DNA from: an uncultured Lentisphaeria bacterium
Lineage (GTDB): Bacteria; Verrucomicrobiota; Lentisphaeria; Victivallales; UBA1829
DNA: 38,323 bases
Assembly (NCBI GenBank): GCA_949282305.1
Contig: CASDPB010000110.1
Location: 1-38,323 of the forward strand
Reading direction: 5' to 3'
This document shows positions 6,227 through 38,323 of the stretch, piece by piece. The notes under the pieces were generated by a model that ran no database searches, was not told where the DNA came from, and saw only the letters and a program-made list of their open reading frames with translations. Positions within the stretch are counted from its first letter, which is position 1, and every line of letters begins with the position of its first letter. The translations under genes and the position numbers were made by a program.

Positions 6227-6257
6227 ACTATACTATTTCAGCCCTGATAAGAAGTTT

Positions 6258-6272: not shown

Positions 6273-6285
6273 TGTCATAATTATA

Positions 6286-7261: not shown

Positions 7262-7284
7262 GTGTGTCATTGAAACGGAGGATT

Positions 7285-7299
7285 GTGACATAATGTCAC
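7285..7299. promoter_or_regulatory. Perfect 7-1-7 palindrome between the TSUP gene and fmdB
   Basis: GTGACAT-A-ATGTCAC lies 23 bp after the permease stop codon. It can also fold as a 6-bp stem with a TAA loop, and a run of T bases begins 8 nt later, so it may be a terminator for the permease gene rather than an operator. Confidence 0.4.
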
Positions 7300-7467
7300 T
7301 GGGAGATTTTTTTAGAAATGCTTTGCATTGAACGTAACTCCATGGAATGCAGCGATTTGAGAATAAAGCGGTTTTCTGGCATAAAGAATGCTTAACAGGG
7401 CGTATGTCATGAATGTGATTCAGAAAATGGACATAATAATATAAAAATAAGATAAAAGGAGTTGGAA

Positions 7468-7674: not shown

Positions 7675-7713
7675 CCGGAACGAATTCTGACAGACAAAGG
7701 AGGCTTTTCCCCT

Positions 7714-9627
7714 ATGGAAAACAATATGCAGTTCAAAGCGGAGGTTCAGCAGCTCCTGCAGCTTATGATCCATTCCGTCTACTCCAACAAGGACATTTTC
7801 ATCCGTGAGCTGGTCGCCAACGCGGCGGACGCGATTGACAAGGCGCGCTTTGAATCCCTCAGCAAGCCGGAATTCGCCCAGAAATGGGAGATCAGGATTG
7901 ATTCCGATGAGAAAGCGAATACGCTTGCCATCTCCGACAACGGCATCGGCATGAACTATGACGAACTTGTTTCCGACATCGGCACAATCGCCCGTTCCGG
8001 CACCAAGGCGTTCATCGAAGCCATGAAAAATGCAAAAAAGGACGGGGAGAACGCTCCCGCGGGGCCTGAGCTGATCGGGCAGTTCGGCGTGGGTTTCTAC
8101 TCCTCCTTCATGGTGGCGGACCGCGTGGACATCATCACGAGGAAGGCGGGTTCGGACAAGGCGTGGAAGTGGTCTTCGGACGGGAAGGAAGCCTACACCA
8201 TCGAAGAGGCGCAGCGCGATTCCCAGGGCACCACGATTGTCATGCACATGAAAGAGGACGCCAGGAGTTATCTTGATTACTGGAAGGTCTCTTCGATCAT
8301 CAAAAAGTATTCCGACTTCATTGAATACCCCGTCATGATGAGGCATACGGTCAAAAAGGATGACAAGGAGACGGTCGAGGATTCGACCTTGAATTCCATG
8401 AAGGCGATCTGGCTCCGTCCGGAATCCGAAGTGACCGCGGAGGAGTTCAACAGTTTCTATACGCATCTTTCCGGTCAGGTCGGCGAACCTCTCAAACGCA
8501 TTTCCTACAGTGCGGAGGGCACCTCCGAATTCAAGGCGCTGCTTTTCCTGCCGGCGCGCGCACCGTTTGACTTCCAGTTCGGAGAGCGCAGAACCAACGG
8601 ACTGCATCTTTATGTGCGGCGCGTGTTCATCACGGACAACTGCCCCGGGCTTCTGCCGGACTATCTGCGCTTTGTTTCGGGCGTGGTCGATTCCAGCGAT
8701 CTGCCGCTGAACATTTCCCGCGAAATGCTTCAGGACAATCCCCAGATTCTCAAGATCAACAAGAATCTTGCGAAACGCATTATCTCCGAACTTACGAAGA
8801 TGCTTGAGAACGACCGCGAGAAATACGAACAGTTCTACAAGGAGTTCGGGCGTCTCATCAAGGAAGGCGTCCACATGGATTTCGCAAACCGCGAAAAACT
8901 CCAGAATCTGCTGCTGTTCGAGACAATGAACGGCCCCAAAGGAAAGCTCGTGACGTTGAAAGAATACCGCGACGCGATGCCGGCGCTCCAGCAGGAGATT
9001 TACTATATCACCGGCGACAGCCGCGAGACGCTGGAGACTTCGCCGCATCTCGAAATTCTCAGGAAGGAGAATTACGATGTGCTGTTCATGACCGATCCCA
9101 TTGACGAATGGGTCATATCCGAAATCGGAACTTACGACGGCAAGAAACTGAAATCCGTCAACAAAGGCGACGTCAAGTTCGACGAGTCGATCCAGAAGGA
9201 ACTTGAGGAAAAGACCAAAAAGGCGGCGGATGAGAACAAGCCGCTGGTGGAGCTGATTAAAAAAGCGCTCGGGACAAAGGTCAAGGATGTCCGTTTCTCC
9301 TCGCGCCTGACGGAAAGCGCATGCTGCCTCGTCAGCGATGAATATGATCCCAGCGCCTATATGCAGCGTGTCCTGAAGGCGATGGACAGGAATGCTCCGA
9401 ATGTGGCGCGCATTCTCGAACTGAATCCGGATCATCCGCTGGTCGTTGCGATGAAGAAGCTCTATGAGAAGTCGCCCGACAATGCGAAGCTGCCGGAGTT
9501 TTCGGAGATGCTGTATGACCAGGCGCTTCTTGCGGAAGGCAGTCCGATTCCGGATCCGCTTCTGTTCACCAGACGCACGGCGTCGCTGATGACGCTCGGC
9601 ATGGAAAAAGAAGCGAGCGCCGAGTAA
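7714..9627 (+). CDS. htpG: Chaperone HtpG (Hsp90)
   Basis: A 637-residue Hsp90-family ATP-dependent chaperone of usual bacterial length. The N-terminal GHKL ATPase domain shows [16 protein letters not shown] (Asn/Asp for Mg-ATP), DNGIGM, and [15 protein letters not shown] as the ATP lid. The middle domain contains YVRRVFITD and the catalytic-loop region [19 protein letters not shown]. The C-terminal dimerisation domain ends near residue 620. It acts in the cytosol on client folding under stress. AAGGAGG precedes the ATG. The stop codon overlaps the dnaJ start by one base (TAATG), so the two are translationally coupled. No CIRCE repeat is visible upstream. Confidence 0.97.
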
Positions 9628-10775
9628 TGGCTGATTATTACGAAATCCTGGAGGTCTCGCACGAGGCGACCGATACCGAGATCAAAAAATCCTATCGGCG
9701 CCTCGCCGTCAAATATCATCCGGACAAGAATCCCGGGAACAAGGAAGCCGAGGAGCATTTCAAGGAGATTTCCCATGCCTATGAGATTCTGGGAAATCCG
9801 GAAAAACGCCAGCTGTATGACCAGTATGGGGAGGCGGCGTTTTCCCACGGCGGCGCGGGCGGCGGAGGAATGGATCCGTTCGATCTTTTCCGCGAAGCCT
9901 TCGGCGGCATGGGCGGGGGAGGGATCTTCGATTCCTTTTTCGGCGGCGGACAGTCGCGCCGTGCGGATCCGAATGGTCCCATGGACGGTTCGGATTTGCG
10001 CTATAATCTTGAAATTACGTTTGAAGAGGCGGTTTTCGGCACGGATAAAACCATTGAATTCCAGCGCATGGCGGCTTGCGAGACGTGCCGCGGATCGGGC
10101 TGCGAGCCGGGAACTTCAAAGAAGCGCTGTCAGCGTTGCGGCGGAAGCGGTCAGATTGCCATGTCGCAAGGCTTTTTCACGATTATGCATGAGTGCCCGA
10201 AGTGTCACGGAGCAGGCGTGATGGCGGAAAAGCCGTGCCGCCAGTGTGCCGGCACCGGGCAGCATAAGGTGAAGCGCACCGTGCAGGTGCATATCCCGCC
10301 GGGTGTCGATACCGGCACCCGGATGCGCGTTGCAGGAGAGGGGGAGCCCGGGCTGCGCGGCGGACGCAACGGCGATCTGTTTGTGATTACCCATGTGCGT
10401 GAGCATGAAATATTTCAGCGCGACGGACTTTCCGTCTACTGCAGCGTCCCGATTGATTTCCCGACGGCGGCGCTCGGCGGAACGGTGGATGTTCCGACGG
10501 TGACGGGCAAAACGGCATTGGAGATTCCCGCCGGCACCCAGACCGGCGACGTTTTCACGATTCGCGGCAAGGGAATGCCGTCTCTTCGCGGACAGGGGCG
10601 CGGAGATCATTATGTGAAGGTCTTTGTCGAGGTGCCGAAAAAACTTACGGAAGAGCAGCGCAATGCTTTGAAACGTTATTCCGAGGCGTTTCAATCCAAT
10701 GGAAACGGAGGCTCGCACCCTGTGCGGGAAAACTTTCTGGAAAAGGCTAAGCGCTTTTTTCAGATCGGTGCTTGA
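9627..10775 (+). CDS. dnaJ: Chaperone DnaJ (Hsp40, type I)
   Basis: A 382-residue co-chaperone with all type I parts. The J domain (residues 1-70) has the HPD tripeptide in [11 protein letters not shown] Gly/Phe-rich region follows ([27 protein letters not shown]). Four CxxCxGxG zinc repeats ([32 protein letters not shown]) precede the C-terminal beta-sandwich substrate domains. It stimulates DnaK ATPase and delivers clients; dnaK and grpE are not in the window. Coupling directly to htpG rather than to dnaK is less common and would keep DnaJ and Hsp90 levels in step. Confidence 0.96.
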
Positions 10776-10902
10776 GTTTTTCGGGTTTTAGGATTGGAGC
10801 CGGGAGAAGGCAGGAGTCCCGCCGGACATCATGCCTCTCCTGCCGTATCAGGGAGTGAGAAACCGGTGTTTTTCCCGGCAGTGTGAACGGAAGGAGTTGC
10901 CG

Positions 10903-11949
10903 TTGAGTGTCACATTACAGGAAGTCGCGCTTGCCGCGGGAGTGTCGGGACAGACTGTTTCGAGGGTGATTAACAACCGGCCCCATGTGAGTGCGAAGGT
11001 TCGCCGGAAGGTGCTTGAAGCAGTTCAGCGGCTCGGCTATACACCATCGGAGTCCGCCCGGATTCTGCGTTCCGGAGGACGCGCGCAACTTTCCGGCGGC
11101 ATGATGCGGCTCGGTCATATCGTCCCCCCGCTCGGAAGAGACTACTGGCACTTTGAACGGGAGCGTCTTCAACTGACGGAGGCGTTTATCCGGGGCGGCA
11201 TGATCCAGACTTTTTACCTGACGAGCGATGCTCTTTTGAAGGATGAGCAGCTGTTTCATTATATGATTGACCCGGCAAAGGTCGACGCCCTGTTCATCAC
11301 AATGTGCGACGAGGAACTGCGGAAGGCTCTGGACCGCCGTCTGCCGCAGGGATTCCCGATTGTGACATTCAACCTGGAAAACTGGCACGGGCAGGTTTAT
11401 ATTGACTTTGAAAGCCAGATGGAAAAGGCGATGGAGCATCTTTACGGGCTCGGGCACCGCCGGATCGGTTTTCTGGGCGTGACTTCTCCGCGGAACGGTG
11501 AGTATGAATGCCGTTACCGGTGTTATCTTGATTTCATGGAAAGGCGCGGTTTGGAGATCGTAGCCGGCTGGGCTCCGTCCGGCGGGGATTTTCATGACTC
11601 CCTGTCCGGCGCATCCCTTGCCGAAAAGCTGCTCCGCTCGGAATGCCGTCCGACGGCGCTTGTCGCCGCATCAAGTTCGATTGCGATTTCCGGTGCGAGT
11701 TTTCTGTTGAATCACGGCGTCAGGATTCCGGAGGATATTTCTCTGATTGCGATCGGTTCAAACCGGTTGAACCGTCTTTTCGTCCCTTCCATCACCTGCT
11801 TCGACATTGATTACTCGCTGGTAGGAGACGAGATTGTGAGGCTTCTGAAAGAACAGCGTGAAAATCCCTCCTTCCAGCCCGTTACAGTGAAAATTCCGAA
11901 CCGGCTTCTGCCGTTGAAATCCACGATGGAAAACCGGGCTGCCGTGTGA
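10903..11949 (+). CDS. LacI-family transcriptional regulator (orphan)
   Basis: A 348-residue protein with a LacI head (VTLQEVALAAGVSGQTVSRVI, then RKVLEAVQRLGYTPSESAR) and a PBP1-type sugar sensor (HLYGLGHRRIGFLGVTSPR, GVRIPEDISLIAIGSN, then the late VPSITCFDIDYSLVGDEIV). I place the start at TTG 10903 because AAGGAG lies 6 nt upstream and the helix-turn-helix then starts at the normal distance; the in-frame ATG at 10831 would add about 24 unlikely residues. No enzyme gene is directly co-transcribed: the next gene, another LacI member, has its own consensus promoter. Its target is unknown. Confidence 0.88.
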   Translation: MSVTLQEVALAAGVSGQTVSRVINNRPHVSAKVRRKVLEAVQRLGYTPSESARILRSGGRAQLSGGMMRLGHIVPPLGRDYWHFERERLQLTEAFIRGGMIQTFYLTSDALLKDEQLFHYMIDPAKVDALFITMCDEELRKALDRRLPQGFPIVTFNLENWHGQVYIDFESQMEKAMEHLYGLGHRRIGFLGVTSPRNGEYECRYRCYLDFMERRGLEIVAGWAPSGGDFHDSLSGASLAEKLLRSECRPTALVAASSSIAISGASFLLNHGVRIPEDISLIAIGSNRLNRLFVPSITCFDIDYSLVGDEIVRLLKEQRENPSFQPVTVKIPNRLLPLKSTMENRAAV

Positions 11950-12021
11950 TCCGCAAGGCGTTATGATCGGAAAACGTACTGTTATTTTTTGATTTTTTAT
12001 CGGAATCTTCCGTTTCAGGTA

Positions 12022-12049
12022 TTGACAAATCAGGATTTTTCCCTATAAT
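12022..12049 (+). promoter_or_regulatory. Near-perfect sigma-70 promoter for cassette 2
   Basis: TTGACA (12022-12027), a 16-bp spacer and TATAAT (12044-12049) lie 46 bp before the LacI-type gene at 12096. A palindrome follows directly at 12053-12086. Confidence 0.85.
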
Positions 12050-12052
12050 TAA

Positions 12053-12086
12053 ATATATGAAAATTTAATATTAAAAAATCATATAT
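12053..12086. promoter_or_regulatory. Nested palindrome, candidate operator at the transcription start
   Basis: Outer arms ATATATGA (12053-12060) and TCATATAT (12079-12086) are exact inverted repeats. The inner 12 bp TTTAATATTAAA (12064-12075) is itself a perfect palindrome on the same centre (12069.5). It covers the expected transcription start of the downstream LacI gene, so autoregulation is plausible. Confidence 0.6.
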
Positions 12087-12095
12087 GGAAAAATC

Positions 12096-13100
12096 ATGGC
12101 GGGAATGCTGAAAATCATATCGGAACGTGCAGGGGTTTCACAGGCCGCGGTATCGCAGATCCTGAACCGGCGGCCCAACGATTACAGTTCGGAGGAGACG
12201 AAGAGGCGTGTTTTTTCGATTGCCCGCGAACTCGGTTACAAGCAGAAATTCGGGCACAAGCTGCTGCGCGGGGAAAAGACGAAGACCGTGGCGATTGTCC
12301 TTTCCATGCAACGGCTGATTCTGGAGGAGCAGAATCAGCGTCTTGTCCTGCTGCTTCTGGACAAATTTGAGAGAGCCGGGTACGTGACGTATCTTCAAAC
12401 GGTTGCCGGGGATGAGGAAGAAAATCTGAAAATGGTCCGGGAGCTGATCCTGCGCGGAACCGATCATTTTGTCTGGCTCGGGAATCCGACCGGGTTCCAG
12501 GCGATTGAAGAGGAGATATTATCGAACGGGCGCAGCGTCATCGGCTTTGCTTCGGGTTTTCAGCGGAATCTCCGGAATGACAGTCTCTGCTCAATCGACG
12601 TCACACTGCGGAAGTTTCTGCAGGAGGGCCGTTCCAACTTCAGACTGCTGCTCGGCACTCCGAATCAGGTGGAACGGATTCAGGTCGTCTGCGCCCTTTT
12701 CCCCGGCCTCTCCTGTGAAGAAGTCTTGCGGCGGTATATCGTCTTTCTGGATTTCAACGGAGAAGTGGACAGCATTGACGAGCTGACTGCGATGGGATAT
12801 GAGAAGACGCGCGGGATCATGACCGCCGATCCGTCGGTTTCCGCCCTGATGTATCTTTCGGACTATTTCATGCTGGGCGGCATCCGCTATCTGCACCGGA
12901 ACCATTATGTCATCGGCAGGGACATCGTGCTTTGCGGACACAACAACATTCATGCGGTGCGGAACCATATTTTCCCGCTCTCGACATGGGAGATTGATAC
13001 GGAAACGATCTCCTCCATTCTTTTTCGGGAATGTGCCGGAAGCGGCAGGATGCAGATGCGGATTCCTTCAAAATATGTTACAATCAAAGGAGAACAGTAA
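12096..13100 (+). CDS. LacI-family regulator of cassette 2
   Basis: A 334-residue protein. The N-terminal head ([19 protein letters not shown], then [16 protein letters not shown]) is a LacI helix-turn-helix plus hinge. The rest is a divergent PBP1-like sensor ([54 protein letters not shown]). The sensor is more divergent than in the gene at 10903, so the ligand cannot be guessed. The pseudopilin starts 2 nt after the stop codon, so the two are surely one transcript. A consensus promoter and a large palindrome lie upstream and suggest self-repression of the whole cassette. Confidence 0.87.
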
Positions 13101-13102
13101 AG

Positions 13103-13852
13103 ATGAGAACGTATTGGCTGCGGCGCGGAATGCGGAACGGACAAAAGAGGAGCGGGACAGCCGGAGGGCATCTGCCGTGTTCTCCGTTTCCGTTCAGGCG
13201 CGGAAGAGATGTATTTACATTGATAGAACTGCTGATTGTAATTGCGATCATTGCGATTCTTGCGGCGATGCTGCTTCCCGCTTTGAGCAAGGCAAGAGAA
13301 AAAGCCAGGGGGGTGTCATGCACTGCGAATGTGAAGTCATTGGGAACTGCCTGTCTGATGTATGCCGCTGACAACGGGGAATACATGCCGGGGGCGGTTG
13401 AGGCCTGCGGGGATATCTGGCTGCGCCCCGTGGCTCCCTATTATGGAGCGCGGGATGATTATACCGTGGTGCCGAAACTGCTGTTCTGTCCGTCAGTTCA
13501 GGACAGGCATTCATCTTGGTGGCATACCAGTTATGCGCTGAACTGGATGCTGGGCAGTGCATATATATTGCCTCCGCAGGGAGAAGGAGTTCCGAAAATG
13601 TCGCGCATCCGGCATCCTTCAAAAGTCGTATTGCTTGGAGATTGGGCGCCGGAAAGCTATCGCGTCATCATGGCGTATGAATTTTATACATCGGCAGGCC
13701 GCCGGCAGACGGTGTTACGGCACTCAAAACGGGCGAATATGGCATTTGTCGACGGACATACCGGAACTTTGACAGGAGACACATGGAACGGCCCGACTGT
13801 GGTGACGCATTCCAAAGGTTCCGTCAACCTGCCATGGGACCCATGGGAATGA
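13103..13852 (+). CDS. Type II pseudopilin-like protein with H-X9-DG motif (cassette 2)
   Basis: A 249-residue protein. The leader (about 37 residues, [14 protein letters not shown]...RRGRDV) is unusually long and basic, then [19 protein letters not shown] and [14 protein letters not shown] as in the other copies. Near the C-terminus [18 protein letters not shown] keeps the His-X9-Asp-Gly motif. The residue before the predicted cleavage site is Val rather than Gly. ATG 13103 is chosen over the upstream in-frame start because AAAGGAGA precedes it and the upstream codons overlap the regulator. The secreted TIM-barrel gene follows after 70 nt. Confidence 0.9.
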
Positions 13853-13922
13853 AAGAGACGCGCAGAGAGTGTGTTTCTGTCGATGACATTGTTTTTTTCA
13901 AGACAACCGAAAGGATGAAGTA

Positions 13923-16118
13923 ATGAAGTTTCAATATCTGACCGCCCTGACCGCATTGCTGCTTGCCGCTTTGACTGCCGCCGCCTCTCCGTGGAAACAT
14001 TCGACTTTCTGGAGTGAAGATTCCCTGCCGTCCCTTCCGGGAACTCAGGTGAACCGGATGGTCGCGGATGACGGTGAGTGCATGATTGCCGGCAATCAGG
14101 GGATTGCATTGTACCGTTTTGAAAATGGAAAATACAGACGCTATGCGTTCAGGGCTTTCCCTGAACTGCTCGATGCGGTAAGACTGGGAAGGGAAGTTGT
14201 CCTGCTTGACCGGGACGGTCTGGGAGTCTGGGACCCGGCGGCGAACCGCGTCCGGCGCGTCGGCAAATTGAAGAATCTGTCACAGTCCTATAATCTGCCC
14301 ATGCTTGCGGCGGTTCCCAGGGCAGGGAAAGTGCTGGTCGCCGTGCAGAACGCCCTCTATGAATTTGATCCGGAAAGTCTGAGGCTTGAATATGCAAAGA
14401 TTGGAATCCGTGGCGGAAAAGGTGCTGTGACCGGGCTTCCGGATGGTTCGGCTGCGGTATACAACATGGACAGACTTTATCGTTATGACGGCAGGTTTCA
14501 TGAGTTGCCTCTCCCAAAGGGATTCAAACAGTTTGAGGCTTTTCATCTGGGATGTTCCAATGACGGACGGTATCTCTATTTCGGCAGTCCCCTTGCCGCC
14601 TACGAACTGGCGTCGGGCAGGATCGTCCGCACCGTTCCCGAACTGAGGTTGATCCGCTGGGGATTTGCAACCGACACGCGCCGCAATGTGCTCTATGCCG
14701 CCGGCTGGCGGGATGTCAATGTGTTTGCCAATGCCGATGAGCCGGAAAAATGGAAGGAGATTGACCGTCTTGGCAGTACTGATGCGGTTCCGCTGTATAC
14801 GCACCGTGATGTGGCTCCGGCTGCCTGCGGCGGTTCTCTCTGTTATCTGCCGGAGAGCGATGAGCTGCTTTTCAGCGGACGCCCCGGAGTAACGATTCTC
14901 GGTTCGGAACCGCATTCCGGCGGATTGGTCTCCGGTACCGGCGGGAATCAGTTCCTTGTGGACAACAGTGCCATCCCCGGCAGCAGCGCATTCCATCGCG
15001 CCTTGCGGGAACGCAAGTTCATCGGAGCGTGGGTGACGACCAGCCACGGTGTTACGGCGGAAGCGCTGGATAACATGAAGCGTTCCGGAATCAATGCAAT
15101 CATCCACATGGTGTTTCAAATAGGGCACGGAAGTTTTTATCCTCCCCACGATGTCCGCCGGACGGTGATTGAAACCGGAAAACTTTGTGCAGAGCGCGGC
15201 ATGACATACCTGATTGCGCTTACTCCGCACAATATTTCAATCAACAACTCGAAACGGACTTTCCGCAAATTCGTTCTGCCGGACGGTTCGACGGGATACC
15301 ATACCAGTCCGCCGCGGAATCCGAAGTTTACAGTCCGGGATTTTCCCTGCTATCTGGATCGCGAGTATTCCGAACAGGCGGGCATCCGGCATAATATGGT
15401 TGAGTTCGCCAAACTTGCCGCGGAAGCGAATATTGCGGGGATTGTCTTTGAGCTGGGAGATGGAATTTCGCCTACCAACCTGAGAAGCCATCATCACTGT
15501 TACTGCGATGACTGTTTTTACCGTTTTGCCCGGGACAACGGTCTGGCTGTTTCCGGGATTCCTCCGCAGAAACGGGCGGAATACCTGAGAAAAAACGGTA
15601 AAACCGCCGCTTATGCCGAATGGCAAACCGCGGAACTGGCGGAACTCTGCCGCGAAGGATACGCCGCCATGAGGAAAATTGCCCCCGGCATGTGCGCCGC
15701 CGTGATGCTGCCGGAAACGGCAAGCGACTATACCGGAGAATGGCTGTATACGGCATTCATTTCCGGTTTCCAGCTTCCCGGAACGCCTGTTCCTGTCTTT
15801 TCCGAACAGACCTATGCGGTTCCATACATGCCGGAGCTCTGCAATAAACTGGAGGAAAAATGGAAAAGGACGGGACTTGAAACACTGCTGATTCCCGGAC
15901 AGGTCAATTACTGGGTGCCGCCCGCCGTGCTTGCCCGCCGTGTGAAGACCTATCTTGAACATACGCCAGGAATTTACTATTATCACAACTACCGGTGGTA
16001 TACCGGAAGGCGCGGTGAAAAGTTTTACAGTCCGCTGAATCCGAAGTTCCGGACTGGCTCCTACACCCTCGGCGAGTATATGGATCTGCCCGATCCGCTT
16101 TGCGAAGCGAAGGAATGA
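13923..16118 (+). CDS. Secreted two-part protein: propeller-like N-terminus plus TIM-barrel glycosidase-like domain
   Basis: A 731-residue protein with signal peptide MKFQYLTALTALLLAALTAAAS and AAGGATG before the start. Residues ~25-330 read as repeated short beta-strand blades (DGECMIAGNQGIALYRFENG, GLGVWDPAANRVRRVGKL, ALYEFDPESLRLEYAKIG), suggesting a beta-propeller. Residues ~360-720 look like an (alpha/beta)8 barrel of the glycosidase-like type: GAWVTTSHGVTAEALDNMKR, ERGMTYLIALTPHN, IAGIVFELGDG and the cysteine cluster HHHCYCDDCFYRF, a CxCxxC...F pattern seen in several glycosidase-like barrel families. The Glu in VFELGDG is a candidate catalytic residue. The substrate is unknown. It is the effector of cassette 2. 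Confidence 0.75.
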   Translation: MKFQYLTALTALLLAALTAAASPWKHSTFWSEDSLPSLPGTQVNRMVADDGECMIAGNQGIALYRFENGKYRRYAFRAFPELLDAVRLGREVVLLDRDGLGVWDPAANRVRRVGKLKNLSQSYNLPMLAAVPRAGKVLVAVQNALYEFDPESLRLEYAKIGIRGGKGAVTGLPDGSAAVYNMDRLYRYDGRFHELPLPKGFKQFEAFHLGCSNDGRYLYFGSPLAAYELASGRIVRTVPELRLIRWGFATDTRRNVLYAAGWRDVNVFANADEPEKWKEIDRLGSTDAVPLYTHRDVAPAACGGSLCYLPESDELLFSGRPGVTILGSEPHSGGLVSGTGGNQFLVDNSAIPGSSAFHRALRERKFIGAWVTTSHGVTAEALDNMKRSGINAIIHMVFQIGHGSFYPPHDVRRTVIETGKLCAERGMTYLIALTPHNISINNSKRTFRKFVLPDGSTGYHTSPPRNPKFTVRDFPCYLDREYSEQAGIRHNMVEFAKLAAEANIAGIVFELGDGISPTNLRSHHHCYCDDCFYRFARDNGLAVSGIPPQKRAEYLRKNGKTAAYAEWQTAELAELCREGYAAMRKIAPGMCAAVMLPETASDYTGEWLYTAFISGFQLPGTPVPVFSEQTYAVPYMPELCNKLEEKWKRTGLETLLIPGQVNYWVPPAVLARRVKTYLEHTPGIYYYHNYRWYTGRRGEKFYSPLNPKFRTGSYTLGEYMDLPDPLCEAKE

Positions 16119-27835: not shown

Positions 27836-27886
27836 TGGTTATGTTGTCATTACCAGTTAAGATAATGCTGTTTTCTGCAAAGTCAA
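27836..27886 (-). promoter_or_regulatory. Promoter and candidate operator of the GntR-GH36 operon
   Basis: Minus strand: TTGACT (27886-27881), 16-bp spacer, TATCTT (27864-27859). Just downstream an imperfect palindrome TGGT-t-ATG-N4-CAT-t-ACCA (27836-27855) shares the TGGT...ACCA form with the site before the other GntR/PBP gene. The -35 box lies inside the first 66-bp repeat unit. Confidence 0.55.
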
Positions 27887-28064
27887 ATGTTTTTCCGCAA
27901 ATCAAATGATTTCTAGTTTGTCAGACGGAGAAATCCGCTATTGCGAAGTCGAACGGCTTTCCGCAAAATAAATGATTTCAGTGTTGTACAGCAGGAAGAA
28001 CTGCTATTGCGAAGTCGAGCGGTTTTCCGCAAAATAAAATTTTTGCTTCGGAACAGACTGTTCC
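27876..28064. repeat. Three tandem 66-bp units, each with a hairpin near its end
   Basis: Units begin at 27876, 27942 and 28008, an exact 66-bp period. Shared blocks are TGC(A/G)AAGTC(A/G)A and TTTTCCGCAAA, with ATGATTTC in the first two. Each carries a hairpin with a different sequence: CGGA-GAAA-TCCG (27926-27937), AGCAG-GAAGAA-CTGCT (27990-28005) and GGAACAG-A-CTGTTCC (28050-28064). The third unit is diverged after its first half. No coding frame is supported. Confidence 0.75.
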
Positions 28065-28328: not shown

Positions 28329-28356
28329 TTGATTTTTTTATGAATGAAAGTATATT
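28329..28356 (+). promoter_or_regulatory. Possible upstream promoter of the hmu operon
   Basis: TTGATT (28329-28334), 16-bp spacer, TATATT (28351-28356). It would give a leader of roughly 160 nt that contains the hairpin at 28394-28414. Confidence 0.4.
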
Positions 28357-28524: not shown

Positions 28525-29244
28525 TTGGATATATTCATCCTGATGATTTTATTTGCGGCGTGGTTTCAGAGCATGTTGAAGCTGACTCTGCTGCCGCGCC
28601 TGTTCCGGTGGGGCATCCTGATTCTGGCGGTTCTCCCGGTGTTTTTTTTCAAGGAACGGCTGGCGGCATGCAGTTTCCAGTCATTGGGAGCGTTTCTTTC
28701 CGACAGCGGGAACCTGCAGGATTTTTGCGCTTTGATCGTAATTCAGGAGCTTCTTGCGCTGCTTCTCGGTTTTTCCCTGCTGAAAAACCGCGAGCTGGGA
28801 CGGCGGAACAGGTTCTGGAAATATGCCGCTCTTCTGCCGTCGCTTCTGCTTCCCGCCGGGGCAATGTATGCGGAGGCGGTTGCATTCAACACCCTGATCC
28901 GTTATGATTTCAACACGATCATGTGGGCTACGGCGCTGGGACTGGTCTGCGTGAGTGCGCTTTTCTGCGAGCTTCTCCCGTTCATTACCGGCAGGGGACT
29001 CATGGAAAAAATCTCCGCGGCGCTGAACGCCACCTGGATTCTTGTCCTGCTGGCGGTGTTTATGCCGGCTGCCGCGGACGGTCAGTTTTCCGCACAGGCG
29101 GAACATGGAGCGCAGTGGGTCCCCGTCAGGGATTTCTGTATTCTCGGAGCGCTTGCCGTGTGCGTGCTTGTTTCGGGAAGTGTAATTCATTGTTGCAGAA
29201 AATACAAGGAAAAAAAGGATACAAAGAGAAAATGCGTTATGTGA
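28525..29244 (+). CDS. hmuT: HmuT-like polytopic membrane protein
   Basis: A 239-residue protein with about six hydrophobic segments (IFILMILFAAWFQSMLKL, LFRWGILILAVLPVFFF, FCALIVIQELLALLLGFS, AALLPSLLLPAGAMYAEA, IMWATALGLVCVSALFCEL, ATWILVLLAVFMPAAA, then ILGALAVCVLVSG). I choose TTG 28525 because GGGAG lies 6 nt upstream; TTG 28498 is an alternative. Sequence alone does not name it. Its place directly before the ExbB-like, DUF2149 and CobN-like genes matches hmuT of the Bacteroidetes hmuYRSTUV heme loci, so the symbol is by context. It overlaps the next gene by 13 nt. It probably forms part of the membrane platform. Confidence 0.7.
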   Translation: MDIFILMILFAAWFQSMLKLTLLPRLFRWGILILAVLPVFFFKERLAACSFQSLGAFLSDSGNLQDFCALIVIQELLALLLGFSLLKNRELGRRNRFWKYAALLPSLLLPAGAMYAEAVAFNTLIRYDFNTIMWATALGLVCVSALFCELLPFITGRGLMEKISAALNATWILVLLAVFMPAAADGQFSAQAEHGAQWVPVRDFCILGALAVCVLVSGSVIHCCRKYKEKKDTKRKCVM

Positions 29245-29840
29245 CGGAAATTTTGAACTGGGTGTCGGCTAGCTTCATGCTTCCCGACATTGTGCTGCTG
29301 CTTGCGGCGATGGTCTTTGCACTGGTTGAACTGGGAGGGTTCTGCTCCACCTGGCTGACGCTGCTCAAACACAGGAGAAAGCGCGAGGCGATCATGGAGC
29401 TTCTGCGCAAAGACCGGCGGATTGAACCGTCCATGCTGGGGCAGGGAGTGTTTGCGCGTCATCTGCAGGAACTTGCCGCGATGAACTGGGACGAAATTCA
29501 TTGCGAGAAGCTGATTTTCGACTTTTCGCAGAATTATGAGCATGAACTTGAACGCGCCAGGTTCATGATGAAGATCGGGCCGATGCTGGGGCTGATGGGG
29601 ACTCTGATTCCGCTCGGCCCCGCGCTTGCCGGGCTTGCATCGGGCGACATTGCCTCAATGGCATATAACATGCAGGTCGCGTTCGGAACAACGGTTGTCG
29701 GCATTTTCGTCGCCGGCGTGGGACTGCTTCTCTACTCCGTGAAGAAGCATTGGTTTGCCGATGAGATCGCGAGCCTGCGTTATGCACTGGACATTCATTT
29801 GAGAAAGGAGTCGGAAAATGGCAAGAGCGCCGCGTTATAA
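29232..29840 (+). CDS. hmuU: HmuU-like MotA/TolQ/ExbB proton-channel subunit
   Basis: A 202-residue protein with three membrane segments: MLPDIVLLLAAMVFALVEL near the start, then the pair IGPMLGLMGTLIPLGPALAG and MQVAFGTTVVGIFVAGVGLL. These last two carry the MotA/TolQ/ExbB signatures (GLMGTLIPLG, AFGTTVVGIFVAG). A cytoplasmic loop of ~100 residues (KHRRKREAIMELLRKD...) lies between segments 1 and 2, as in ExbB. ATG 29232 is used; longer in-frame starts would lie inside hmuT. It overlaps hmuT by 13 nt and hmuV by 23 nt, indicating tight coupling. The inferred role is the proton-conducting stator that powers the CobN-like chelatase. Confidence 0.88.
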   Translation: MRYVTEILNWVSASFMLPDIVLLLAAMVFALVELGGFCSTWLTLLKHRRKREAIMELLRKDRRIEPSMLGQGVFARHLQELAAMNWDEIHCEKLIFDFSQNYEHELERARFMMKIGPMLGLMGTLIPLGPALAGLASGDIASMAYNMQVAFGTTVVGIFVAGVGLLLYSVKKHWFADEIASLRYALDIHLRKESENGKSAAL

Positions 29841-30159
29841 AGCGTTTGACAATGACGAAGACTGTGATCCGCTGACCGGGCTGCTCAATCTTTTTGACGC
29901 GGCGATGGTCTTTGCCGTCGGTCTGATGGTGGCGTTTGTCATTCAAAGCCGCATGACGGAGTTTTTGACTTCCGAAGATGTGACTTTCGTCAAAAACGCG
30001 GGCAGACCGGATATGGAAATCATTGTCAAGAAGGAAAACAAGGTATCCCGTTACAAGGCGGAAAAGACGACCGGTTCGGGCAGGGGGCAGAGAGTCGGCA
30101 TCGCATACCGCCTGGAGAGCGGAGAGGTGATTTATGTCCCGGAAGGAAATGAAAAATGA
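29818..30159 (+). CDS. hmuV: HmuV-like DUF2149 protein (ExbD-like)
   Basis: A 113-residue protein of the DUF2149 family. After a short acidic start comes DPLTGLLNLFDAAMVFAVG, one membrane helix with Asp27 at its start, then a small periplasmic domain ending SGEVIYVPEG. The layout (short cytosolic tail, one helix with a leading Asp, periplasmic domain) parallels ExbD/TolR, where the helix Asp is needed for proton coupling. The gene overlaps the ExbB-like gene by 23 nt and the CobN-like gene by 4 nt (ATGA). HmuV of P. gingivalis and Bacteroides belongs to the same family. The functional analogy to ExbD is my inference. Confidence 0.85.
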   Translation: MARAPRYKAFDNDEDCDPLTGLLNLFDAAMVFAVGLMVAFVIQSRMTEFLTSEDVTFVKNAGRPDMEIIVKKENKVSRYKAEKTTGSGRGQRVGIAYRLESGEVIYVPEGNEK

Positions 30160-33100
30160 GTGTCGATGACAAAAAGAAAAAGATCATGTTTTATGCCGTT
30201 CTGGTGATTTTCATCGCGGCTGCCGCATTCGCGCTTTACCGCTTCGGTTCCCCGACGCATGTCGGCATGATCAATTATCCGGAGTACATGCTCGCGGAGA
30301 ACATGGATCAGAAAATCAATCCGATGGTGCGCATCACTCCGGTGAAGTGGAGCGACAAGACGAGTCCCGATGAGCTGCGCAAATACGACGTGCTCTATTT
30401 TTTCGGAATGGGACTTCAGTTTTCCGAGAAGCAGCAGGAACAGCTCGACGCGCTGATGAAGCGGGGCGTGCCTGTTTACGTGACGGCTTCCACCCGTGCC
30501 GAGACGCGCCTTAATACTCTGACGGAGGCGCAGACGAAGAATGTAGCCGCCTATATGGGGAACGGCGGCAGGGAGAATTTCCGGCAGCTGATGAATTATA
30601 CGCGCTATGCGATTCACGGCAGACGCCTGTTCGCGGAGAAACCGCTTCCCCCGAAACATATTCCTGCCTCCGCATTTTTCCATACCGATGAAAACGCCGT
30701 CTTCACAACCTATGCGGAGTATCTGAAATTCTATCAGGAATCCGGAAAATACAATGAGAAAAACCCGACGGTCTGCATTCTTTCCGGCAACGGAGGAGGA
30801 GACCTCAAGACTCTGGTTGCCGCACTGGAAAAGCGCAATATCAATGTCGTCGGCGTTTCCGGCATGATGCGCCGTCTTTCCATGCTGGAGGAGATCAAGC
30901 CGGATTTGATTATCTACCAGCCTCATGGAAGGCTTTCGATGGATGATCCCGATGCGGCGGTCGCGGCTCTGAAAAAATACAACATTCCGCTGTTCTGCCC
31001 GATCAAGGTCAGCCAGCCATATCATGAATATCTGAAAGACCAGCGCGGAATGACCGGAGGCATGTTGAGCCAGAGCGTGACGATGCCCGAACTGGACGGC
31101 GGCGCGGTGCCGTTCGTGCTTTCGGCGCTTTATCCGAATGCGCGCGGACTTCAGGAGTTCCGGATCATTCCGGACCGTCTGGAGCGTTTCTGCACAATGG
31201 TGCGCAAGACGCTGGATCTGAAGCGGAAACCGAATTCCGAAAAGAAGATTGTCATCATCTATTACAAGGGGCCCGGAAAAAATGCAATGAACGCCGGAGG
31301 AATCGAGGTCGGGGACTCTCTGCTGAATGTTCTGAAACATCTGCGGGACGCCGGTTTCACGACAGGGACGCTGCCGGAGACTCCCGCGGAACTCAACCGC
31401 ATGGTGCAGGAACAGGCGGCTGTCTTCGGAACTTATGCCGAAGGCGCGATTTCGGAGTTCATCAAAAAGGGCAATCCGGAACTCATTTCAGAGGAGGAAT
31501 ACCTTTCCTGGGTCAGAAAAAGCCTTCCGGCGGATTTGTTTGAAAGCGTGGAAAAACAGTATGGCAGGTTTCCGGGAAAATATCTGAGCGTCGAACGTGA
31601 CGGGAAACCGTATCTTGTGCTCGGCAAACTTCAGTTCGGCAACATCGTGCTGATGCCGCAGGGGCTGCCTGCCTACGGGGAGGACACCAATAAGCTGATT
31701 CACGGCGTGAAACAGGCTCCGCCGCTGAGTTATCTGGCGACTTACCTCTGGCTGCGGCATAAGTTCAACGCGGACGCCCTGATGCACTTCGGAACGCACG
31801 GCAGTCTGGAGTTTACTCCCTGGAAACAGGTTGCGCTCTCCAGTTACGACTGGCCGGATGCGCTGATCGGGGAAATGCCGCATTATTATTTGTATGTCAT
31901 CAACAACCCCGGCGAGGCGCTGATCGCCAAGCGCCGCAGTTATGCCACGATGGTGAGCCATTTGACCGCGCCTTTCATGAATTCCGGTTCCTACGGTCCG
32001 CTTGCCGAGCTGGAAAAGAAAATCGATGAGTATGAAACTGCTGAGTCGGAGATGCTCAGGGAGGAATATCGCAAGTCGATTATCGCTTCGGTGAAAAAGG
32101 AGAAGATTGATCAGGACATCAAATTCAGCCCGGAGTTCGCGAAAGGAAAACTGACGGACGGGGATCTGGAACGGCTGCATGAGCATCTGCATGAAATCGG
32201 CGGCGCGAAAGTCAACCGCGGGCTTTATGTGATCGGGCGTCCCTACTCGAAGGAGCAGGCGGATGAAACCGCGCTGCTGATGTCCGTGGATCATGTCGCG
32301 GAACAGCTTTTCAAGGAGGATGTGAAGCGCGGCAGGGTGAAGGAGGAACAGCGTGACAAGCCGCTTTTCTATGATGCCAACTATATCAAGCCTGCGCGGA
32401 AGATGATTGAGGAGGCTTTCAGAAATCCTCCGAAGAAAACCGTGAAGAAACCTGACGTTCCGGAGAGGAAAACGGCTTCCGGCGCTCCGATGTCACCGGA
32501 AGCGATGAAGAAGGCACTGGAAAGCATGCCGCCGGCGATGAGAGCCGCGTTTGAACGGATGACGCCGGAGGAACGGAGCGTCGCAATGAAGATGTTTGCT
32601 TCCGGGATGCGTCCTGCCGGAATGGGACGCGGCGGCCGTTCCGGCGGGATGAGAATGGGAGGAGCGCCGGAAAAACCGAAGTTCGATCCCGTGCAGTCCG
32701 CGCTGCATGTGCGCGGAGAGCTGATCGCCTCGACACAGTATGAACTGGATTCGATCGTGAATGCCTTCTCCGGCGGCTATCTTGCTCCGTCACCCGGCGG
32801 CGATCCGGTCGGCAATCCGGACACGGTTCCGACGGGACGCAATCTTTACGGCATAGATCCCGAGCGGACGCCGACGAAAGAGAGTTACGCCGTCGGAAAG
32901 AAGCTGGGCGAGGCTTTGATTGCGGCGAAGCTCAAGAGCACCGGAAAATATCCGGAAAAGGTCGCGTTCACGCTCTGGGGAGGCGAGTTCATCCGGAGCA
33001 GGGGAACGAATATCGGAGAGATTTTCTTCCTGCTCGGAGTGGAGCCGATTTGGGATTCCAGAGGAAGAGTGCAGGATGTCAGGCTGATCCCCGATGAGGA

Positions 33101-34355
33101 GCTCAGGCGTCCGCGCATTGACGTGCTTGTGCAGACGTCGGGACAGTTCCGCGGCGCCGCCGCCAGCCGGATGAGGCTGATCGACAAGGCGGTCAGACTG
33201 GCGAGTTCGGCGCCGAAGGGACAGTATGACAACTTCGTGCAGAAGGGCTCCGAGACCGTCGTGCGCGAGCTGATTGCAGGAGGCATGTCCCCTGAACAGG
33301 CGAAAAGCCTTGCCGATGCCCGCGTTTTCGGCGGAGTCAACGGCAATTTCGGAACCGGCGTGACCGGTATGGTGCAGTCCGGCGACAAATGGGAGGATTC
33401 CAAAGTGATTGCTGACCTGTATCTGAACAATATGGGGGCGCTTTACACCGAGGATCACTGGGGCGAATCCATCCCCGGCGTGTTCAAGGCGGCAATGCAG
33501 AACACGGATACCGTGGTCCAGCCGCGTTCCTCGAATTCATGGGGACCGCTCTCTCTTGACCATGTCTATGAATTCATGGGCGGCATGAACCTGGCGGTTA
33601 GAAATGTGACCGGCAAGGAGCCGGATACTTATTTCAACGATCTGCGCACGCCCGGACGCGCCAGGATTCAGGAGGCGGGCGAAGCGGCAATGGTCGAGGC
33701 GAGAAGCACGGTGCTGAATCCGAAATATCTGAAGGAGATGATGAAGGAAGGCCCCGGAGGAGCCGGGACTTTTGCGGAAGTCCTGCGCAACAGTTACGGC
33801 TGGAAGGTGATGAAGCCGGACATGCTCAAGGATCATCTCTTCGACGAATACAAGGCGGTTTTCGTGGATGACAAATACAATCTGGACATGAAGAAATATT
33901 TCGAATCCAAAAACCCGTATGCGCTTCAGGAGATCACCGCCGTAATGATGGAGACCGCGCGCAAGGGACTCTGGAAGACGGATGCGGCGACGCTCAGACA
34001 GCTTGCGGAGCTTCACGCCGAGCTTGTGAAGAACCACGGCGCGGCATGCAGCGGATTTGTCTGCAACAATGCCAAACTCAAGGAGTTCATTGATTCCAGA
34101 CTTTCCGATGCGCAGGCGAAACAGTCTTACAATGACGAGATAAGAAAAGTGAGAACTCCGGCGCCTTCCTCTTCGCAGGACAGCAGGAGCGAAGAGGTGG
34201 AGGGAATGAAGCTCAAGGAACAGGTGATTCAGCAGGAAAAAACGGAATCGAAGCTCACCAGACGCAATGCCGTGATTCTGCTGATTTCTCTGGTCGTTCT
34301 GATAACGGCGGCTTTCCTGATCGGAAAATACCGGAGGAAATCGGAAGAGCAGTAA
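30156..34355 (+). CDS. hmuS: HmuS-like CobN/magnesium-chelatase-family protein, membrane-tethered
   Basis: A 1399-residue CobN/BchH-family protein. An N-terminal membrane helix (IMFYAVLVIFIAAAAFALY) and a C-terminal one (AVILLISLVVLITAAFLIG) would tether a large periplasmic chelatase. Family motifs are HFGTHGSLEFTPWKQ (about 544-558), RRSYATMVSHLTAPF and the late block around residue 1098 (EDHWGESIPGVFKAAMQN, SNSWGPLSLDHVYEFMGGMN). Cytosolic cobaltochelatase CobN lacks such tethers and works with CobS/CobT, which are absent. In Bacteroidetes hmu loci the equivalent HmuS is reported to remove iron from heme anaerobically. Residues ~779-836 are a Met- and Gly-rich insert with 11 Met. A strong terminator follows at 34374-34420. 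Confidence 0.92.
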   Translation: MSVDDKKKKIMFYAVLVIFIAAAAFALYRFGSPTHVGMINYPEYMLAENMDQKINPMVRITPVKWSDKTSPDELRKYDVLYFFGMGLQFSEKQQEQLDALMKRGVPVYVTASTRAETRLNTLTEAQTKNVAAYMGNGGRENFRQLMNYTRYAIHGRRLFAEKPLPPKHIPASAFFHTDENAVFTTYAEYLKFYQESGKYNEKNPTVCILSGNGGGDLKTLVAALEKRNINVVGVSGMMRRLSMLEEIKPDLIIYQPHGRLSMDDPDAAVAALKKYNIPLFCPIKVSQPYHEYLKDQRGMTGGMLSQSVTMPELDGGAVPFVLSALYPNARGLQEFRIIPDRLERFCTMVRKTLDLKRKPNSEKKIVIIYYKGPGKNAMNAGGIEVGDSLLNVLKHLRDAGFTTGTLPETPAELNRMVQEQAAVFGTYAEGAISEFIKKGNPELISEEEYLSWVRKSLPADLFESVEKQYGRFPGKYLSVERDGKPYLVLGKLQFGNIVLMPQGLPAYGEDTNKLIHGVKQAPPLSYLATYLWLRHKFNADALMHFGTHGSLEFTPWKQVALSSYDWPDALIGEMPHYYLYVINNPGEALIAKRRSYATMVSHLTAPFMNSGSYGPLAELEKKIDEYETAESEMLREEYRKSIIASVKKEKIDQDIKFSPEFAKGKLTDGDLERLHEHLHEIGGAKVNRGLYVIGRPYSKEQADETALLMSVDHVAEQLFKEDVKRGRVKEEQRDKPLFYDANYIKPARKMIEEAFRNPPKKTVKKPDVPERKTASGAPMSPEAMKKALESMPPAMRAAFERMTPEERSVAMKMFASGMRPAGMGRGGRSGGMRMGGAPEKPKFDPVQSALHVRGELIASTQYELDSIVNAFSGGYLAPSPGGDPVGNPDTVPTGRNLYGIDPERTPTKESYAVGKKLGEALIAAKLKSTGKYPEKVAFTLWGGEFIRSRGTNIGEIFFLLGVEPIWDSRGRVQDVRLIPDEELRRPRIDVLVQTSGQFRGAAASRMRLIDKAVRLASSAPKGQYDNFVQKGSETVVRELIAGGMSPEQAKSLADARVFGGVNGNFGTGVTGMVQSGDKWEDSKVIADLYLNNMGALYTEDHWGESIPGVFKAAMQNTDTVVQPRSSNSWGPLSLDHVYEFMGGMNLAVRNVTGKEPDTYFNDLRTPGRARIQEAGEAAMVEARSTVLNPKYLKEMMKEGPGGAGTFAEVLRNSYGWKVMKPDMLKDHLFDEYKAVFVDDKYNLDMKKYFESKNPYALQEITAVMMETARKGLWKTDAATLRQLAELHAELVKNHGAACSGFVCNNAKLKEFIDSRLSDAQAKQSYNDEIRKVRTPAPSSSQDSRSEEVEGMKLKEQVIQQEKTESKLTRRNAVILLISLVVLITAAFLIGKYRRKSEEQ

Positions 34356-35865: not shown

Positions 35866-36288
35866 TCAGTATGAACGCATGCTTTCGGCGTCAAAATAAG
35901 TTTCGTGCGGCGGGATGTCAATGGATTTGCCTCGGTCGGAGGAGGGCAGGGGATCGGTCGCCAGCTGGAGCCGTCCGGCTGCCAGATCGGCAAGACGTTC
36001 CATGGTATCCTGGTAGGATTCGCGGATTTTTTCCGGTACATTGGTGCCGGGTCCGCGTTTGTAAAGTTCGTATTCCGCGATACGGAGAACCCATTCCTCC
36101 ACCATATTGTCATCGGGGAGGGGGATGGCATAGCGGACACTTGCAAAACTTTCCACCACGGCTTCCGCACGGGAAAGAAGCGTTTCCGTGAAACTTTCCT
36201 GTTCGGATTCCGGTACATTGGCGAGATTCATCAGTTTTGTCGGAGTGACCCTTTCCCTGAAGGTCTCGAATGAAACATATTTTCCCAT
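35866..36288 (-). CDS. Mu gp36-like (DUF1320) phage head-completion protein
   Basis: A 140-residue protein of the Mu gp36/DUF1320 type. Family-like stretches are LLSRAEAVVESFASVRYAIP, EEWVLRIAEYELYKRG, IRESYQDTMERLADLAAGRL and the closing YFDAESMRSY. Such proteins complete or connect the phage head. It follows the major capsid gene by 66 nt, the Mu order. The genes that would normally come next (gp37, tail sheath and tube) are absent, so the module ends here. Confidence 0.85.
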   Translation of the reverse strand: MGKYVSFETFRERVTPTKLMNLANVPESEQESFTETLLSRAEAVVESFASVRYAIPLPDDNMVEEWVLRIAEYELYKRGPGTNVPEKIRESYQDTMERLADLAAGRLQLATDPLPSSDRGKSIDIPPHETYFDAESMRSY

Positions 36289-36354
36289 GGCTGTTTCCTT
36301 TTTTCAGATGGAAAATACGGGGAAAGAGAAGCGCGCTTCCCTTTCTCCGCGGGG

Positions 36355-37260
36355 TTATGCGGCGGCGCCGCCTTTGTAGATCAGGTGCGGGAAGGCAAGG
36401 AAGGCTTCGCCGCGTGCGTCGGTGCCGTAGATGTATTCCTTGCGGCAGAATACATTTTCATCGGTTTCGCTGTCGAGACAGACCAGATTCGGCTGTTTTC
36501 TCTGCTGGACGAACAGCGGCTTCAGGATTCCGTTTGTCGCGGCAAGGAACCAGAGATCCTCGCTGTCTCCGGAAAGTTCAGGCAGAACCAGGAGTTCTGC
36601 GCTGCCGTTCCACGGGTTGTCCGTCGCTCCCACGCCGGCGTCGAGCTCCTTCAGCTGGAGACGGTCTTTGAGAATGCCGAATGCGGTTGCTTCATTTTTC
36701 GGACCGACGATCAGCAGGTTCGGGATTACGCCGAGATTTCTGCCGTTGTGACCCCGGTATTCCATCATGCTCCTGCGTGCGTCGGCGTAGTTTTCCGCGG
36801 AGAGCGCACTGGTGCTTTTGTTTGCGATTATGGAATCTCCGTAGGTTCTGGTGGTGGAGAAAAAGTCTGCGCCGTCAATCCATTTCGAGTCGGTGACGAG
36901 AGCCTTGACCGCAAGATCCTGCCAGAGTTTTCCGGCGTTGTAGCCCATCTGGGCAATGAACGTGGAGTAAATGCCGTACTGATCGTCTTCGATGTCGTTG
37001 CGCGGAATGGAAACGGTGTCCTCGAAGTCGCGGTTGACGACTTCGATTTTCCGAGAGGAGAGATTTTTGAGCTGGCGGTCTCCGATCCATTCGCGCATTC
37101 CCCCGAACTGTTCGAGAAAAGGATAAACGTTCGCGGCGGCGCCGGACTGAATGGTTCCGCAGAATTTCCGCCATGTATCGGGCACGGTTTCGATGCCGGA
37201 GGCGAAGTTCATGCTGAAACTTTTGAAGAGAAAATCCATGTTTTTTCTGTTGATATCCAT
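36355..37260 (-). CDS. Mu gpT-like major capsid protein
   Basis: A 301-residue protein of Mu gpT major-head-subunit type. Typical blocks are FLFKSFSMNFASGIETVPDT, YPFLEQFGGMREWIGDRQLK, VSIPRNDIEDDQYGIYSTFI, NLLIVGPKNEATAFGILKDR and LVLPELSGDSEDLWFLAATN. The length is that of Mu-like capsid proteins, and no frameshift is seen, so it could still be functional. It is preceded by the cement-protein gene (21-nt gap). Confidence 0.92.
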   Translation of the reverse strand: MDINRKNMDFLFKSFSMNFASGIETVPDTWRKFCGTIQSGAAANVYPFLEQFGGMREWIGDRQLKNLSSRKIEVVNRDFEDTVSIPRNDIEDDQYGIYSTFIAQMGYNAGKLWQDLAVKALVTDSKWIDGADFFSTTRTYGDSIIANKSTSALSAENYADARRSMMEYRGHNGRNLGVIPNLLIVGPKNEATAFGILKDRLQLKELDAGVGATDNPWNGSAELLVLPELSGDSEDLWFLAATNGILKPLFVQQRKQPNLVCLDSETDENVFCRKEYIYGTDARGEAFLAFPHLIYKGGAAA

Positions 37261-37281
37261 ATTTGCAATACCTTTCTTCCG

Positions 37282-37704
37282 TTATGCGATGACCTGGTTT
37301 CCGATTTCGACGATGACCTGGGAATCCGCATCAATTTCACGGAGGATTCCCGCTTTGACCTTGTTGGTGCCGCCCGCTTTTCCCACGGTATGGTCGTCCA
37401 CGACGTAGACGGTTTTATTGATGTCCGCATGAGTCAGTTTTTCCGTTTCCGCGGAGGCGTTGTCAAATTTGAAGACGCCGCTTTTCGCAATGACTCTGCC
37501 GTCAGCGGTGAAGCCTTCGGCGCGTCCGATGACGATGAGCCCGGCGGCATCTGCGGCGGGTTCCGCCTCATTGGTCGAACCGTTGATCGCGACAATGGAG
37601 CCGGTATAGATTTTCGTATTGTCCTTGACGGTTCTGGTGCGATGGAGCTTCTGCGTATGGCAGAGGATTTCCGTGGTGTTTCTTGCGTTGGAGAGAGCAG
37701 TCAT
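37282..37704 (-). CDS. Phage capsid cement/decoration protein (DUF2190-like)
   Basis: A 140-residue protein with family-like segments IYTGSIVAINGSTNEAEPAA, LIVIGRAEGFTADGRVIAK, SGVFKFDNASAE and KTVYVVDDHTVGK. Such proteins bind the capsid surface and stabilise it. Its start overlaps the scaffold gene's stop (ATGA) and the capsid gene follows closely, so all are one operon. Confidence 0.82.
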   Translation of the reverse strand: MTALSNARNTTEILCHTQKLHRTRTVKDNTKIYTGSIVAINGSTNEAEPAADAAGLIVIGRAEGFTADGRVIAKSGVFKFDNASAETEKLTHADINKTVYVVDDHTVGKAGGTNKVKAGILREIDADSQVIVEIGNQVIA

Positions 37705-38177
37705 TTGCGTGTTCCTTTCTTCTTTTTCATTGCTTTGAGCTGTTTTTCGGTGAGTCCGAGCAGACGGACAATCTTATCTTCTTCCGGAGTGAGTTCTTCT
37801 TCCGCCCCGTCCTCTTTGACGGGCGCTTCGTCGGTGTTTCTGTTGTCGGGAACGATCCGCGGCGCGGCGTCGCTCCATGTCTGAAACGCATTCAGGTCGT
37901 TCATTGCGAAATCCAGCGCCCATTGACGCATGCTTTCCGTGAGCTTGCCGTCGCTGAACGCCGCCCGAACCGCTTCCTTTGCATCGGATGCAATGAGTTC
38001 ATTCAGTTTGTTTTCGACCTCTTCGAGAGATTTGAGATCGTAGAGCTTGAGAAGTGTGGAGACTTTCTCCGCTTCCGCGTTCAGTTCATCAATTCTGTGA
38101 AGGACAGCCTTCCGCTGTTCCTCCTGATCCGCGTCCGCGAGAGAAAGGAGACCGAGTTTTTGCAGAATCTCGTTCAT
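37701..38177 (-). CDS. Mu gpI-C-terminus/gpZ-like scaffolding protein
   Basis: A 158-residue protein starting at ATG 38177, with CAGGAAAC before it. It resembles the C-terminal scaffold part of Mu-like gpI: coiled-coil segment RIDELNAEAEKVSTLLKLYD, then DGKLTESMRQWALDFAMND and APRIVPDN. The protease half of gpI is absent and no protease frame lies in the 146 bp before it. It could be made separately further upstream. It is the first gene of the capsid set in the window and may have its own promoter in 38178-38323. Confidence 0.8.
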   Translation of the reverse strand: MNEILQKLGLLSLADADQEEQRKAVLHRIDELNAEAEKVSTLLKLYDLKSLEEVENKLNELIASDAKEAVRAAFSDGKLTESMRQWALDFAMNDLNAFQTWSDAAPRIVPDNRNTDEAPVKEDGAEEELTPEEDKIVRLLGLTEKQLKAMKKKKGTRK

Positions 38178-38323
38178 GTTGTTTCCTGTTATGTAAAATT
38201 CAAGGGACTGAACCCCAGATTTCACGTTTTTTTTGTTTTTTCACGTTTTCTAAACTCATTTTTGTCTTTTGAAGACAAAAATCCACCCTCTGCAATTTCT
38301 TGCAGTCCTTTCTATGTAAAACT
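38178..38323. promoter_or_regulatory. Region before the phage scaffold gene with direct and inverted repeats
   Basis: TTTCACGTTTT occurs twice (38220-38230 and 38239-38249), spaced 19 bp, about two helical turns. ATTTTTGTCTT/AAGACAAAAAT (38258-38268, 38272-38282) is an exact 11-bp inverted repeat. No gene is seen. It may be a regulatory zone of the phage head operon. Confidence 0.5.

Follow-up and report, generated by a model that had tools for sequence, protein, structure and literature searches.

A heme dechelatase-type hmuTUVS operon in a receptor-free setting in Victivallales

The closest described relatives of the system treated here are the hmuYRSTUV loci of Bacteroidota. HmuS of Bacteroides thetaiotaomicron has been demonstrated to work in the metal-removing direction with NADH, and the hallmarks given for the protein are its heme ligands, its active-site motifs and, as a defining feature, a Met-rich insertion (domain IV) (PMC12583661). 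Evidence for this chemistry is recent and comes almost exclusively from Bacteroidota, in which HmuUV is taken to power the receptor HmuR, as assigned in B. thetaiotaomicron (PMC10100974). Under low iron, Porphyromonas gingivalis and its relatives strongly induce hmu and flavodoxin and, weakly, a feoB1-DtxR cluster (PMC10434189). Here, an hmuT-hmuU-hmuV-hmuS operon is described from a 38,323-base window, which is one entire contig (C110) of a 4.36 Mb genome that is 96% complete in 132 contigs. The bacterium is a gut-type member of Victivallales (Lentisphaerota), the order that includes Victivallis vadensis (G134 contig 15, NZ_QEKH01000015.1), in line with the Lentisphaerae-type genome suspected in the original prediction, which was made from the window's sequence alone. 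The explanation that best covers the locus, and is considered likely from its sequence, is that the operon encodes an inner-membrane complex that is induced by iron starvation and extracts iron from heme in the periplasm without oxygen. The HmuS family itself is already known; new here are the receptor-free setting, an operator-defined regulon and a conserved pair of pseudopilin and NTF2-like genes.

HmuS and its operon

All four genes are on the plus strand, with successive overlaps of 13, 23 and 4 bases (Table 1). Their original reading as hmuT, hmuU, hmuV and hmuS agrees in coordinates and is backed by Pfam matches for the last three and by a profile match for the first. HmuT has no match to a Pfam family, but its profile matches that of Bacteroidota HmuT (hhalign 99%, E 7e-18, 220 columns); a relationship to DUF2162 was rejected, as profile comparison gives it no support (8% and 4%). 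The hmuT start is placed at a TTG (28525) that agrees with the ribosome-binding site and with aligned homologues, and an alternative in-frame TTG is found at 28498.

In a tree of 87 proteins, generated with a quick method and with ChlH left out, the window HmuS falls within a 54-row HmuS clade (SH-aLRT 100), apart from CobN. This clade also holds Prevotella, Bacteroides, Porphyromonas, Capnocytophaga, KSB1, Planctomycetota and others, and within the tree the 28 Victivallales HmuS form a single group (support 99). The closest solved structure is B. thetaiotaomicron HmuS (9d26, 1102 bits, versus 397 for ChlH and 351 for CobN). The axial heme ligands Met79 and His254 (HGR), together with Gln299, are retained as M85, H257 and Q306. 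The HFG(T/A)HG motif carrying His538 is present as HFGTHG (H548), and the LSLDHxxEFMGG motif carrying His1209 and Glu1212 is present as LSLDHVYEFMGG (H1136/E1139); in CobN-type relatives, Asp is found at the position of the second His. H516, S1126 and W1129 are further window residues among those aligned. Hydrophobic anchors at both ends (residues 10-28 and 1372-1390) bear out the double tether that had been proposed.

Automatic models label the protein as CobN, and the large gene could on that basis be taken for cobN of a conventional B12 cobaltochelatase. This is extremely improbable, as the protein misses every CobN equivalog cut-off by wide margins, lies outside the CobN clade and carries the LSLDH motif where CobN has Asp, and as CobT_C has no match anywhere in the genome (CobS was not searched genome-wide). 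The original prediction had set HmuS against a true CobN accompanied by CobS and CobT elsewhere; the grouping with Bacteroidota HmuS and the lack of CobT_C both fall on the side of HmuS. By tree and motifs, the gene is a true HmuS, an ordinary member of the known family.

The genome has two more PF02514 proteins, a second HmuS on contig C121 and a CobN-like protein on C131. The second HmuS, which is 57% identical to the first, is preceded by a pseudopilin and a 149-residue exported protein. The C131 locus (L006, 6041-12396) is a second stator-chelatase system, consisting of a pseudopilin, DUF2162, MotA/ExbB, DUF2149 and the CobN-like protein, which has hydrophobic ends. It resembles the hmu operon in having the same stator pair before a class I chelatase homologue and a pseudopilin ahead, but differs in lacking the heme ligands, the LSLDH motif and the operator described below, and in carrying the membrane protein DUF2162 rather than HmuT. 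C131-type proteins, like the CobN rows, fall outside the HmuS clade. At two loci of another genome (L066 and L067; G010 contigs C119 and C89), a pseudopilin directly precedes a distant chelatase homologue with a long tree branch, followed by MotA/ExbB and DUF2149.

Receptor absence and the iron operator

The barrel (PF00593) and plug (PF07715) of TonB-dependent receptors have no match in this genome, and each is matched by 3 of 137 Victivallales genomes. A TonB-dependent receptor is found beside hmuS in 21 of 26 loci from outside Victivallales, versus 0 of 58 Victivallales locus records (some genomes being included twice). The original prediction had noted the lack of a receptor, HmuY, CobS and CobT close by, and the listed open reading frames near the operon indeed contain no HmuR, HmuY, CobS or CobT; for HmuY (PF14064) no genome-wide search was made.

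In alignments (for HmuU, with its counterparts in Bacteroidota, KSB1 and Omnitrophota), HmuU and HmuV retain motor-type (stator) residues, including an invariant Asp (NLFD motif) in the single DUF2149 helix of HmuV, so that the complex driven by proton-motive force (PMF) that was originally suggested is now better supported than the first reading could show. DUF2149 is also found in Methanosarcina, which served as a control, and HmuUV adjoins a CobN-like gene in one archaeon. Archaea have no outer membrane. Given this distribution and the absence of a detected receptor, HmuS or HmuT is the most likely target of the stator, and HmuUV probably energises these proteins rather than a receptor. This departs from the published Bacteroides model, in which HmuUV powers HmuR. 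HmuU and HmuV do resemble ExbB and ExbD, and in the manner of that model they might power an outer-membrane transporter of a kind invisible to TonB-receptor models. Such a transporter is quite unlikely, with nothing matching the barrel and plug models here and almost nothing across the 137 genomes of the order, and with the two archaeal occurrences in cells that have no outer membrane to serve.

A palindrome, AATTAG-N6-CTAATT, is paired ahead of hmuT. Its core, TTAG-N6-CTAA, was used for searching, and the flanking bases (AA before, TT after) are also palindromic. The core occurs 12 times in the 4.36 Mb, and ten of these occurrences are arranged in five pairs at distances of 96-166 bases. The pairs precede hmuTUVS, the C121 operon (pilin-sm-hmuS2, where sm is the small exported protein), a pilin-sm operon, feoB, and a DUF3793-flavodoxin-DUF2325-DtxR-family regulator operon, while the single sites at C47 and C127 resemble chance occurrences or weak operators. 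In hmuS and cobN loci from across the order, 560 kb in all, the core has 45 matches at a spacing of 6, versus 0-4 at each other spacing, and is absent from C131-type loci. The same target genes carry the operator in two congeners and in G058. As paired sites precede feoB, the DUF3793-flavodoxin-DtxR operon, the second hmuS and the pilin operon, the operator-defined set is very likely, from its gene content, an iron regulon. The shared palindrome covers the operon of the DtxR-family regulator itself, and a DtxR-family repressor may be what binds it.

The operator also bears on the direction of the reaction. Classical ferrochelatase (PF00762) was not found in the genome, and HmuS belongs to the class I chelatase superfamily, whose members insert metal, so that HmuS might run forwards as a ferrochelatase substitute, placing iron into porphyrin. 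This appears very improbable: the anchors at both ends imply that the body of HmuS is periplasmic, the operator is common to iron-uptake genes, which is the opposite of what heme making would need, and with NADH the B. thetaiotaomicron enzyme takes the metal out (PMC12583661).

Table 1. Features of the hmuTUVS region in the window
Feature	Position	Strand	Description
hmuT	28525..29244	+	polytopic inner-membrane protein, 239 residues, about 6 hydrophobic segments (hydropathy)
hmuU	29232..29840	+	MotA/TolQ/ExbB-family proton-channel subunit; PF01618, E 2.6e-11
hmuV	29818..30159	+	DUF2149, ExbD-like single-helix subunit; PF09919, E 5.6e-30
hmuS	30156..34355	+	homologue of membrane-anchored periplasmic heme dechelatase, 1399 residues; PF02514 (CobN/Mg-chelatase), E 5e-297
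Met-rich insertion of HmuS	32463..32691 (limits approximate)	+	12 Met within a 108-residue stretch
Operator copy 1, TTAGTCTTTTCTAA	28306..28319	palindromic	directly upstream of the promoter-like site
Promoter-like site, TTGATT-16-TATATT	28329..28356	+	between both operators; consensus match only, by itself no sign of function
Operator copy 2, TTAGTTCTATCTAA	28472..28485	palindromic	ahead of hmuT

Between a GntR-type regulator gene and the hmu promoter are three 31-nucleotide direct repeats with a spacing of 66 nucleotides (27876-28038; first copy TGCAAAGTCAAATGTTTTTCCGCAAATCAAA). Downstream of the operon, Mu-like phage head genes (gp36, gpT major head and I protease) are found on the minus strand at 35866-38225 and run off the contig end; they are probably an integrated Mu-like element or remnant.

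A conserved pseudopilin and NTF2-like pair

The second hmuS, the operator regulon and the gene pair treated in this section go beyond the original prediction. A same-strand pseudopilin lies ahead of the hmuS operon in 15 of the 24 Victivallales loci with enough upstream sequence, although these loci are related and the counts are not independent. Prepilin-type genes are abundant (at least 122 prepilin-type N-methyl genes in this genome, most without known role), and a null expectation was therefore computed for the linkage. At about 2.3% per locus, it leads to the rejection of mere abundance as the explanation. Each of the 15 pilin-linked loci carries an exported protein of 137-160 residues between the pilin and hmuT or hmuS, and additional named loci have the order pilin-sm-T-U-V-S. 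The hmu-linked pseudopilins form one group (96/86), separate from nearly all unlinked ones, with some long branches. The window operon is without the pair, which occurs in this genome with the second hmuS (C121) and, without hmuS, on C15. In hmuS operons of the order, the pair usually occupies the slot that other phyla give to the receptor.

The small exported protein is modelled (pLDDT 89) as an N-terminal anchor followed by an NTF2-like domain. It aligns with many NTF2-fold chains (VIA-align Z 8-10), a common fold that says nothing on function, and Foldseek returns no match at E 0.001 or below. The pseudopilin model is too poor for use (pLDDT 45).

At the C15 locus (L096, 8699-10175), the operator-controlled pseudopilin and NTF2-like genes are convergent with a downstream ABC transporter (permease and ATPase). 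In three Planctomycetota loci (L129, L134 and L146), DUF1559-type pseudopilins are found upstream of hmuU-hmuV-hmuS; pseudopilins are likely common in Planctomycetota generally.

The pair may take part in the outer-membrane route. In a tentative form of this idea, which is possible but doubtful, heme or heme-bound iron would reach the periplasmic dechelatase through an iron-regulated pseudopilin and NTF2-like module, without a receptor, and HmuU/HmuV would serve as a PMF motor that works directly on this enzyme. In the literature consulted, no publication links pseudopilin, heme and Lentisphaerae, and Lentisphaerota are not mentioned in the paper on HmuS (PMC12583661). With the operator, a short regulon list is available for a little-studied phylum, and the pseudopilin and NTF2-like genes gain a probable pathway.

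Proposed mechanism and comparison with known systems

In the proposed mechanism, heme or heme-bound iron would cross the outer membrane by a receptor-free route. HmuS, anchored at both ends, would bind heme between its head and neck (Met85/His257) and demetallate it in the central cavity (His548/His1136), yielding protoporphyrin and Fe(II), and the Fe(II) would enter through the co-regulated FeoB. The co-regulated flavodoxin may supply electrons, as has been suggested for B. thetaiotaomicron (PMC12583661). With no TonB-dependent receptor found to power, HmuU/HmuV would be a PMF-driven stator acting on HmuS and/or HmuT.

Several observations weigh against this mechanism. No outer-membrane heme-uptake protein was identified, and the genome assembly is incomplete and fragmented. 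Most archaeal CobN loci examined are without HmuUV. The genome has a second DtxR-family gene, so that two regulators are candidates for binding the operator. Finally, Gln1198 and Phe502, both called strictly conserved in Bacteroidota, are replaced by Ser1125 and Asn512 in the window protein, so that details of the substrate may differ. These two positions are not taken as family-defining, since they line the cavity rather than belong to the catalytic His pair, and since the published list was compiled from sequences that share 50% identity or more with B. thetaiotaomicron HmuS; Ser at the Gln1198 site is frequent outside Bacteroidota.

The same two replacements could point to a complex that demetallates another gut tetrapyrrole (chlorophyll breakdown products, coproheme or cobalamin), with heme not the main substrate, and the CobN-like system on C131, with its own DUF2162-MotA-DUF2149 set, suggests that the family diversifies. 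Another main substrate is nevertheless unlikely, as HmuS retains the two heme ligands along with the active-site His pair, and the operator ties the operon to feoB and flavodoxin. Nor was a cobalamin riboswitch detected: neither the window nor either of the two paralogous loci has an Rfam match at the gathering threshold. Demetallation of heme is the preferred reading. Victivallales, a gut order that includes a cultured species, combine HmuTUVS under apparent iron control with an almost complete lack of receptors, which separates the two roles considered for HmuUV. The prediction is that HmuUV works on HmuS or HmuT, and the question of entry through the outer membrane is testable in Victivallis vadensis.

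Genes of the hmuTUV(S) type are likewise found in KSB1 (L117), Acidobacteriota (L153), Pseudomaricurvus (L154), Pirellulaceae (L129) and Omnitrophota (L140), and the KSB1 and Omnitrophota loci share the T-U-V-S order of the window. Unlike in the window, a TonB-dependent receptor is close by in L117, L153, L154 and L129. The Omnitrophota stretch (approximately 1-15000) is without one; it contains feoB, flavodoxin, DUF2023, hmuTUV, an FmdE-domain gene and hmuS, then two pseudopilins.

With hmuYRSTUV of B. thetaiotaomicron and P. gingivalis, the window operon shares homologous HmuS, HmuT, HmuU and HmuV, the heme ligands, the active-site motifs, the Met-rich insertion and the two membrane anchors, and in both cases hmu, flavodoxin, feoB and a DtxR-family gene all belong to the iron response, which here is predicted from the operator. 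It differs in its gene order (T-U-V-S, not S-T-U-V), in that no HmuR was found and no HmuY lies nearby, and in the Gln1198Ser and Phe502Asn replacements. Further differences are the paired TTAG-N6-CTAA operator, the pseudopilin and NTF2-like exported protein in operons of the order, and the second, pilin-linked hmuS in this genome.

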